A stretch of DNA of 64,000 nt, from assembly GCA_963575645.1 (NCBI GenBank), contig OY754469.1, positions 21,594,001 through 21,658,000 of the forward strand, given 5' to 3'. Source of the stretch: Xanthostigma xanthostigma. Lineage: Eukaryota; Arthropoda; Insecta; Raphidioptera; Raphidiidae. A model generated the notes under the pieces. That model was given only the letters and a program-made list of their open reading frames with translations. It was not told where the DNA came from and ran no database searches. The position numbers and the translations under genes were made by a program. Positions 27,976 through 49,500 of the stretch are shown one piece after another. Every line of letters begins with the position of its first letter. The first letter of the stretch is position 1.

Positions 27976-28575
27976 ATGGTTAGATACGCAGCTTTAAAAG
28001 GCTTTTACGATGTTGAGAAGACAATTGGTTGCGGTGGATTTGCTAAAGTTAAACTAGCTGTTCATGTAGCGACTGGTGAAAAAGTTGCTATAAAAATAAT
28101 GGAAAAGTCACGCTTAGGGAACGATTTACCAAGAGTGAAACTGGAAATTGAAGCGCTGAAACAATTGTCACATCGGCATATTTGCAAATTATATGAAGTA
28201 AATGTTTCTTCTTCTTAATTTAGATTCAATTTTGTTTACCTTTGATTTGACGTAGGTTTACTTTAGGATTCTAACGATGGTTTTATTCAACTTTGACTAC
28301 ACTAGCTCTAACCCTTCTCTGAAGCCTTCAAAATTTGTTTTACCTTTCAATCAAAATTTTCCAAGAATTTACATACTGTTTTTTTTTTTCAGGTAATCGA
28401 GACAGAATCACACATTTTTATGGTAGTAGAATATTGCTCGGGAGGTGAACTTTTTGATCATATTGTTGAAAAAAATCGGTTATCAGAATCAGAAAGTCGA
28501 TCATTTTTCAGACAAATTGTTTCTGCTGTAGCATATTTGCACAGTCTTGGCTACGCTCATAGGGATTTAAAACCT
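27976..28575 (+). CDS. MELK: MELK exons 1-2, kinase N-lobe to catalytic loop
   Basis: Exon 1 (27976-28197, 74 codons) ends GAA|GTAAAT. Exon 2 (28393-28575, 61 codons) begins after a poly-T/CAG acceptor. Together they encode the N-lobe, helix C ([11 protein letters not shown] type), hinge [15 protein letters not shown] and the catalytic loop as far as AHRDLKP. The split between P135 and E136 places the giant intron inside the HRDLKPEN motif. Confidence 0.93.
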
Positions 28576-46500: not shown

Positions 46501-49500
46501 ATATTCAAAAATCCATTTTTGTGGGCAATCTTACTTGACGTCAAGCTAGATTGCCCACATAAAAATGTCCACAACTTTGACATTTTTTGAGCACTAACGA
46601 CGAAATTTTGGGGTTTTACAGCACTAACGGAGCACTAACGATTGGCATAAATAAAAGTCCAAAATAAGTGTCGGTAGCCGTGGGCAATCTAACTTGACGT
46701 CAAGTTAGATTGCCCACATAAAAATGTCCACAACTTTGACATTTTTTGAGCACTAACGAAATAATTTTGGGGTTTTACAGCACTAACGAAGCACTAACGA
46801 TTGGCATAAAAAAAAATTCAAAATTCTGTCATGGGCAATCTAACTTGACGTACGTATAGAAAAGTTAAACTTGAAACGAGGACCGATCAAAGAAGTTGTC
46901 GGTAGCAAAATGACCAGTTCCTAGCTGATTTAATTTTCTAATTTTTAGTCACTAAACAACCTTGTCACCGTTTTTAAAAATTTAGATAATATTAATTACA
47001 GGAGTTTTTTAAAAATTTAATCATGCCACATATTTATTTGAGTCATTCGTATACATAATTATTATTTAGTTAGAAATAATCAGTCAGCAAATAGCTCAAA
47101 TGGATTTTGATACGTAAAGTATTTTTTTACAATTTTTTGGAAATTATATACGAAATAACACTGCCAATCAAGATTGAATTTGATAGACGAAGTTGATAGT
47201 GATTAAATTTGTAAAATCTAGTCAAAAAACTTTGGTTATTCATGATTATATTTATGTGAAAAAATATATTTTCTGTTTATAGGAAAACGTTTTATTAGAT
47301 AAAGACGAAAATTTGAAATTAATAGATTTTGGACTGTGTGCAAAACCGGATGGAGGAATGCAATGTCCTTTGTTTACATCCTGTGGATCACCAACTTACG
47401 CTGCTCCGGAATTAGTCCTCGGAAAGCAATATTTAGGATCTGAAGTTGACGTCTGGTCTATGGGAGTGTTATTGTATGCATTACTCGCTGGATATTTGCC
47501 ATTTGATGATCAGAACATCGAAAACTTGTATAAAAAGATATTGGTAAATATTATTATAATAAAACCTTCTTATGGTCTAGGCGAGCTACAACAGTAATTG
47601 TAGAAATGCGTGCAGCTTTGTTTGACTTGACTAAAGAATGATCTTGGAATTTCGGTTGATACCGATTCTATTTATTTCGTTCTCATATCGTGAGCCGTTA
47701 TCCACAAATAAGAGTTGAATATTTGCGCGCACTTATAAAATAAAAAGTTATCCAATGCAGCACTTTTTTGTCAAGTCATAACAGACACTATTGTAACACG
47801 ACTCAAAATTGCTACTGTTGTATATTCAACAAAACTGTTTATAATGAAAAAATCCCTGTAAAGCAAACGTTTATCGAACCTGGTGAATCCACACTCACTC
47901 CCTTGAATTTTGTAATAGGGAGTTTTGATTGTATGTATTATTATTGGCGTCACTTGTTCAACTTTTGATAGATTACTGATGTTTTCAGCTGTCAGGAAGT
48001 GTGTTTGTTGGTAAGTTCTGAACTGGTTTTAAACTTCCAGAGCGTCTGTTGACAACACAGAACTCTTCAAAAACAATTGCATGTTTGTTGGTGAAATTCT
48101 CTGATTTGTCAAATTTTGTTCGAACTTAGTTCTAGCAGCTCTAGGTTCCTAAAACTGCTAAAAGCGTAGAATTGCTACGACCAGGTTCAAACAGTTCAAA
48201 GAGTTTAAAAACTTGACTAACTATCACGCATTTGTGTCCACAGAGTTCTGTATTGCCGACAAAGGCTTTGAGGGTTCACAACCAGCTCAAAATTTCCCAA
48301 CATACACACTTATCTTGAACATATACAACTCAATACCTTTTTATAAATTAAAAATAAAGTGTTATTGTATAGTTTGACAGTTTTTATTTTGTTCTTAGAG
48401 TGGAAAATATGAAGAGCCACCTTGGATGACAATGTCTAGTCGCCGTTTAATACGGTCTATGCTTCAAGTCGATCCAAAGAAGCGAATCAAAGTTACAGAA
48501 TTACTTTCACATCCGTGGATAACAATAGGAATTTTAGAACCTGTCCAAATCCAGTCTTCTAATCACAAATTGAAGGTATGTTCTTTTATTTGAAGTATGA
48601 ATTAATAAATTATGTTACTTGTCAAACTTAAAATTCTACTACAGTACTCTCTCCTTAATCTGCCACTCAATTATCCGACAAACTGGTTGAAGGCATAATG
48701 CAAAATTCTTTAATCCTCCGGTTCTATGTACGTCATGTTCTATAGTCCACTGCCTACATCTAAAGTACACTGTGCCATCTATTTTTGTACCATGTATACA
48801 CTCGAATATGTCACTGCCACTAATCTGATACTAGATTAGTTTTCGAGGGGGGCGAAGTAATTAGAGAGTGCGGTAATGTTATAAAACAGTGTAAATATTA
48901 GCTATGTTCCTTCCAACCTCTCTGCGAACGGTAATATTATCGTAACGGTCTTCTGATCTAGTTAAAATGCGTTCCAACCGAGATGTGGACGGTTGTTGAA
49001 CCGTCCTTTAAGCGTTACAACCATATATTTATGGTTAAAACTGAATTTGTGAGAGTTTGGTGATGGTTTCGAAAGTATCTTTAAAAAAAAACTAAAATGA
49101 AATTGGCAATTGATATGCGCTAAGCACTTTATTACGTTTGTCTCCATAGATTGTTTGTCTCTGTTTAATAACTAGATAATTTTTTGTTTACAAATAAAAC
49201 ACGTGCTTTCTTCTGAGTCTGTTTTGGATATAACTTTACCATGCTTTTGGCAAGCAAATTGGGCATTTATCATGACACATTTTTCGTTCCACAGCAAACA
49301 TTTTTTATTATCCCTCAAACGTTGAAGTCTCGCATAAAAAGTTTCTTTTCAAAAAATAAGTTTATGAAGCTCTTACCTTTGGTGATAATTTATATTGATA
49401 TTTATATCTTTATTTTTATAGTTATCGTGATAACAATATTTACATTTTGAGTTTGACAAATGACATAATATATAGACAATATAGATGCTGATTACCTCAG

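Follow-up and report, generated by a model that had tools for sequence, protein, structure and literature searches.

A window of 64,000 nucleotides (nt) from Xanthostigma xanthostigma (623-Mb assembly, 28 contigs) holds a kinase gene whose second intron is occupied by a foldback-type DNA transposon. Three consecutive exons of the gene match, in order, positions 1-65, 67-126 and 127-208 of the Pfam Pkinase profile; by its likeness to the MELK sequence the gene is presumably MELK, and it is referred to here as MELK-like. An earlier reading of the same DNA (the original prediction) had described a complete foldback-type transposon with a 9-bp target site duplication (TSD) and an internal transposase gene filling this intron, and that description holds. 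Its estimate that an intron of about 0.6 kb had grown to 18.7 kb is also right in substance, as removal of the element and one TSD copy leaves 624 bp of the present 18,707 bp, but the intron coordinates required correction to those of Table 1. The intron had further been placed inside the HRDLKPEN codons: the motif is indeed interrupted, but the boundary of exons 2 and 3 falls between the codons of ...HRDLKP and EN....

Ends, target site and arms of the element

The TSD, ATAGAAAAG, is identical on both sides of the element, as had been claimed. Inverted ends are likewise present, although the 46 bp originally given understated them, exact identity extending over 178 bp; in inverted orientation, the two element ends share 99% identity across 335 bp. 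Inside these ends lie the predicted inverted tandem-repeat arms, composed of monomers of about 156-159 bp. The left array (approximately 28813-30231) amounts to 8.9 x 159 bp, or about nine monomers, and the right array (approximately 43414-46851) shows a 156/312-bp period and about twenty monomers, of which two types partly alternate, in keeping with the 312-bp period. At the monomer junctions the end motif abuts its own reverse complement, generating the palindrome TGGGCAATCTAACTTGACGTCAAGTTAGATTGCCCA or a close variant. Such palindromic junctions number 28 within the element (7 left, 21 right), with 0 in the remainder of the window and 0 in each of five mononucleotide shuffles. Both structural hallmarks of the foldback type, namely long inverted tandem-repeat arms and a TSD combined with multiple copies, are found.

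Copies elsewhere in the genome

A genome search with a 23-base end pattern, allowing up to 2 mismatches, returned 88 matches, compared with 0 for the reversed pattern used as control. By inspection, 52 of these form 26 plus/minus pairs spanning 139 bp to 18 kb, and an exact 9-bp duplication flanks 17 of the 26, while mismatched flanks, taken from two different copies, gave none in 650 pairings; further copies with the same ends and TSD length exist. The 17 exact TSDs are A/T-rich and show no strong consensus.

Two further long copies, at C1:26914095-26926387 (12,293 bp, TSD TTTTTGTGG) and C9:40030332-40044359 (14,028 bp, TSD CAATTTTTC), align with the MELK copy across nearly their full length. 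Outside the arms, one block of 4,728 columns shows 3 mismatches and 5 gap positions between the MELK and C1 copies, and a second block of 4,030 columns shows no difference; between the MELK and C9 copies the corresponding counts are 1 mismatch with 5 gap positions, and none. This near-identity argues for recent insertion; if insects acquire a few mutations per 10^9 sites in each generation, the insertions would date back roughly tens of thousands of generations. The arms vary far more: from common inner markers to the end, the right arm measures 4,455 bp in the MELK copy, 1,854 bp in C1 and 3,589 bp in C9, and the left arm 1,509, 1,342 and 1,342 bp, respectively; the exact inverted ends of the three copies are 178, 277 and 469 bp long. 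The arm monomers probably undergo fast exchange or conversion, although errors in arm assembly could also account for some of this variation.

At the other extreme, a copy of 139 bp (L002) corresponds to about one terminal monomer, has the outer end on either side and is flanked by an exact 9-bp TSD, with 82% identity to the first 159 bp of the element. Short copies of this kind argue that the ends by themselves may define the mobile unit. The junction palindrome (up to 3 mismatches) occurs at 131 sites in the genome and at 0 in the control, a number so small that plain satellite arrays are disfavoured as an explanation of the arms.

The transposase gene and its interruption

A transposase does lie within the element, as the original prediction stated, but its gene is in two pieces parted by a nested insertion which that prediction omitted. 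The frame of the first piece enters the nested insert for a few codons and then meets a stop. The nested insert is missing at the matching point of the C1 and C9 copies, each of which holds one open frame of 1,054 codons that, from the first ATG, specifies 1,040 residues identical between the two. When compared in two pieces, the coding bases of the MELK and C9 copies are identical at 3,123 of 3,123 positions. Because its gene is split, the MELK copy is unable to make the full protein and is not autonomous. The insert itself contains internal inverted repeats of 631 bp (99.5-100%) and a weak MADF-like open reading frame at 36432-36734 (-) whose Pfam score lies just under the cut-off; by its traits, it is presumably a non-autonomous PIF/Harbinger-type element.

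A homologue search with the full protein gave none at E 0.001, an absence that means little given that the search needs shared short words. The C-terminal half retrieved three relatives and a profile three others, among the homologues being P0004, aligned over 98% of the protein with 27% identity (profile E 4.5e-145). The homologues have acidic motifs in common, namely DATGS, D.S.A and, further on, E..FK, and on the basis of motif and conservation D339, D414 and E631 are assigned as the putative DDE triad. When the genome was searched with the second half of the protein, 28 matches were obtained, with 100% identity at three (C6, C1 and C9); the others are fragments of decayed copies, on C10 and C12, along with divergent relatives whose identity is mostly 24-39%. 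A stretch of contig C10 at about 8.8-16.3 Mb holds 13 of these 28 matches together with 31 of the 53 genome matches to PF10551; it is perhaps a pericentromere, a sex-linked region or a piRNA cluster.

Other features of the element and its surroundings

Upstream of the transposase gene lies an antisense partial copy of its 5' part, and the C1 and C9 copies align straight through this region. A transcript spanning 32309-32663 and 33816-34171 would form a hairpin and might thereby supply small RNAs that silence the family. The long inverted repeat downstream of the transposase stop is matched without mismatch by the C1 and C9 copies, and no clear duplication was seen there by eye. A segment of about 495 bp at 31802-32296 bears 148-bp inverted ends (99.3%) and is perhaps another small nested element.

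Outside the transposon, open stretches at 48399-48593 and 52227-52601 resemble later kinase exons, such that the gene seems to run on past the insertion. On the opposite strand, exon-like stretches at 24850-27400 (-) end, by eye, about 0.6 kb upstream of the kinase start codon and suggest a divergent gene pair.

Table 1. Positions, strands and properties of the kinase gene segments and transposon features in the window.
Feature	Position	Strand	Details
Kinase exons	27976-28197, 28393-28575, 47283-47543	+	Pfam Pkinase match
Intron 2 of the MELK-like kinase gene	28576-47282	+	18,707 bp; GT/AG sites
Left TSD copy, ATAGAAAAG	28773-28781	.	Exact
Whole foldback transposon	28782-46855	+	18,074 bp; based on ends, TSD and other genome copies
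Left terminal inverted repeat	28782-28959	+	178 bp, exact
Left arm	28782-30231	+	Tandem monomers of ~159 bp joined by TGGGCAATCTAACTTGACGTCAAGTTAGATTGCCCA or near variants
Internal tandem repeat	31255-31743	.	163 bp, 3 copies
Inverted partial copy of transposase gene 5' part	32309-32663	-	88.6% to 33816-34171 (+); upstream, antisense
Transposase, first piece	33700-35037	+	Putative catalytic Asp codons 34714 and 34939 (motif assignment)
Nested element splitting the transposase gene	35024-37710	.	~2.7 kb; inverted ends TAGGCCAGTCATA / TAGACTAGTCATA; 3-bp duplication TTA
Transposase, second piece	37707-39512	+	Putative catalytic Glu codon 38280 (motif assignment)
USP-like boxes in second piece	Cys box 38712, His box 39324, Asp 39372	+	Motif assignments
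Inverted repeat downstream of transposase stop	39800-40808	.	450 bp, 99% complementary, ~110-nt gap
Internal tandem repeat	41746-42360	.	153 bp, 4 copies
Right arm	43414-46855	-	Tandem monomers of ~156 bp, inverted relative to left arm
Right terminal inverted repeat	46678-46855	-	178 bp, exact
Right TSD copy, ATAGAAAAG	46856-46864	.	Exact

Relationship to known transposon families

Taken together, the element is very probably a recent insertion from a PHD-less family of cut-and-paste DNA transposons of Rehavkus/Mutator-like foldback type. Several observations weigh against this assignment. Neither Pfam (E up to 10) nor NCBIfam gives a domain in the 1,040-residue protein, and the putative DDE core is assigned by motif and relatives only; a match of the relative P0002 to PF10551, covering the first acidic region, stands at E 0.05, below the cut-off. 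Nine of the 26 end pairs have no exact TSD at the pattern edge: four of them are one base off, L018 agrees at 7/9 and L014 at 6/9 positions, L006 and L009 show no match, and in L004 the duplication, read by eye, becomes exact after a 4-bp shift. Another 36 of the 88 end matches are lone, their partner missing from the listing. Sixteen such lone-end places were examined (21 loci in all, made up of these 16, three of them again at larger size, and the pairs L028 and L032), and a relaxed search recovered a partner with an exact TSD in two, L039 and L050, with 16/23 and only 11/23 end bases alike, respectively. The remaining lone ends may be truncated or have their partner beyond the examined stretch.

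By published anatomy, compared by description only, the element is closest to Rehavkus. In the excerpted accounts drawn on throughout this section, Rehavkus occurs in arthropods and annelids and is marked by a 9-bp TSD, a PHD finger and a mini-satellite before the 3' terminal inverted repeat (TIR), with a TIR range of 26-400 bp and the position of outgroup to the MULEs (PMC6446971), and Rehavkus-1_TC of Tribolium has 164-bp tandem repeats in its inverted termini (PMC10218199). The present element is similar in its 9-bp TSD, in its one large transposase reading frame, in the length of its terminal repeats (approximately 156-159 bp) and in having these repeats as a mini-satellite adjoining the TIR (PMC6446971, PMC10218199); it is also without a Pfam MULE match, as may be compared with the outgroup position of Rehavkus. 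Its TIRs of 178 bp (MELK) and 277 bp (C1) fall inside the Rehavkus range and that of 469 bp (C9) above it. It differs in its size of 12-18 kb, versus 9.5 kb, and in the PHD finger, of which neither the Cys/His count nor Pfam gives a sign: between the putative catalytic Glu and the Cys box there is no PHD-like Cys cluster, only 5 scattered Cys/His. Because the PHD finger is missing and Rehavkus is known here by description only, the element is not assigned to that family. In the relative P0002, a Cys/His cluster is visible by eye between the Glu and the Cys box, and Pfam named no PHD there.

A sister element at C4, approximately 25,012,370-25,024,011, contains two pieces matching the protein at 31% and 24% identity. 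It resembles the MELK element in its inverted arms, the right one of which includes a tandem repeat of 179 bp, and in its NTCAFDS and GHY...DD boxes, whereas its end sequence (ACCCCGATAAAGCTGGCACCGCC) is different, its coding region is spread over several frames or exons, and a PHD-like Cys/His cluster, seen by eye, precedes its Cys box. Its flanks agree by eye at 8/9 bases; an automated search for an exact TSD found none. As this sister has inverted tandem arms of its own, the foldback plan is common to at least one distant relative in the genome.

The TSD of 8-11 bp and long TIRs that define the MULE superfamily (PMC6446971) are both found here, and arthropod MULEs share the cut-and-paste mode, long TIRs and Rehavkus as outgroup, although complete elements among them measure 1,875-9,972 bp (PMC13359780), versus 12-18 kb in the present family. 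Tm1 of Meloidogyne (PMC3169594) and Tetris of D. virilis (PMC4079207) are alike in their tandem repeats inside long TIRs, TSDs of 8-10 bp and non-autonomous copies; Tm1 differs in its 496-aa Phantom-type FLYWCH/MULE transposase and repeats of about 14 bp (PMC3169594), and Tetris in its repeats of about 220 bp and in that, according to the part of its description used here, no transposase was found (PMC4079207).

It is unlikely that the element belongs to the Drosophila FB-NOF lineage itself, with which it shares the plan of inverted, internally tandem arms, a 9-bp TSD and a large internal open reading frame. The original prediction had read the element as an independent FB-like lineage of the same plan; by published anatomy, Rehavkus is the nearer match. 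By the title of Badal et al. 2013, FB-NOF is reportedly confined to the melanogaster group, which counts against such membership. The likeness to FB and FB-NOF, in the foldback plan and the TSD (9-10 bp in FB4, with TIRs of about 700 bp; PMC8277862), is one of description, and the foldback plan occurs with different transposase classes (PMC3169594).

Less probable still is a Phantom-type MULE with foldback arms, of the kind represented by nematode Tm1, whose tandem-repeat TIRs, mostly 9-bp TSDs and Phantom-like transposase (PMC3169594), together with a TSD length fitting MULEs (PMC6446971), would suit the arrangement seen here. The protein, however, is twice as long as that of Tm1 and has no Pfam match at E up to 10, PF10551 and FLYWCH included, and none of the 53 PF10551 matches in the genome lies at the MELK, C1 or C9 loci. 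On these Pfam results, Phantom and plain MULE membership are disfavoured. A Galileo-like foldback element of the P superfamily, which would also have long, internally repetitive TIRs (PMC3688188), is very improbable and disfavoured on Pfam, as the protein gives no THAP or P-type match. That the arms or the insertion are assembly artefacts is equally hard to credit: repetitive inverted arms are difficult to assemble and their exact lengths may be wrong, but the same core occurs on three chromosomes, each time with other flanks and another exact TSD, two of these occurrences being long copies additional to that in MELK, and the short copies have the same ends and TSD length.

A possible deubiquitinase-like domain

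The C-terminal part of the transposase holds an NTCAFDS box and a GHY...DD box; the putative USP-like residues are Cys775, His979 and Asp995, in a domain of about 270 residues. A profile built from three C-terminal domains listed 10 PDB sequences, nine of them deubiquitinases, namely five of USP14 (at the His box), two of USP8 (at the Cys box), two of the TssM deubiquitinase (at the His box), besides one unrelated mutase, with weak scores (best E 0.4); the USP14 Cys box also lines up in the profile match, but with a negative score. With a wider profile, an unrelated designed protein (E 0.05) ranked ahead of USP36 (E 0.3 and 0.4), and P0004 as a single query yielded nothing but an unrelated zinc-finger protein (E 0.2). 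The relative P0001 matches PF00443 at E 0.074, below the cut-off. The resemblance of this domain to USP deubiquitinases, its scores being weak, is suggestive only.

Deubiquitinase-type domains on transposon-encoded proteins have a precedent in the Helitrons, which carry VTD/OTU domains, VTD using an Asp-x-His motif (PMC9741609, in excerpt). Helitrons are rolling-circle elements. Unlike in VTD, the assigned His of the present protein comes before Asp, as in typical deubiquitinases, and a VTD deubiquitinase is disfavoured for that reason. No cut-and-paste transposase with a USP domain turned up among the papers listed by a literature search, which is no proof of its absence from print.

Proposed mechanism and significance

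In the mechanism proposed for this Rehavkus/Mutator-like family, the 1,040-residue DDE transposase would bind a motif of about 20 bp, ACGTCAAGTTAGATTGCCCA, which lies at both extremities of the element and recurs at the arm monomer junctions as two copies back to back in a palindrome. The predicted enzyme would cut at the outer ACGTACGT ends and make 9-bp staggered joins. As the junctions between monomers repeat the end motif, the arms resemble arrays of extra transposase binding sites, for which the sites bound by the THAP domain of Galileo offer an analogue (PMC3688188). Unequal exchange or conversion would alter arm length rapidly and leave the core unchanged. To move now, the MELK copy would depend on transposase from an intact copy; it would be expected to leave the kinase transcript by splicing with the whole intron.

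A more far-reaching proposal is tentative, and we lean against it in its complete form: an animal foldback lineage may encode a DDE transposase joined to a functional USP-type deubiquitinase, which would shield the transposase, or the complex it forms with DNA, from ubiquitin-dependent turnover by the host, and the arms may be arrays of minimal mobile units bounded by back-to-back end motifs, single monomers yielding 139-bp elements. Foldback elements with a Mutator-type transposase (Tm1) and Rehavkus elements with tandem-repeat termini are already known; of the present findings, the possible fusion of transposase and deubiquitinase is the most novel.

For Galileo, the excerpted account reports that no transposition events were detected (PMC3688188). 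In the present family, two near-identical copies with uninterrupted frames suggest recent activity, so that a foldback transposase could be assayed directly. With arms that differ by kilobases and a core that differs by a few bases, arm turnover is also measurable in this family. If the deubiquitinase-like domain on a cut-and-paste transposase proves true, it would suggest that DNA transposons beyond Helitrons act on host ubiquitin.

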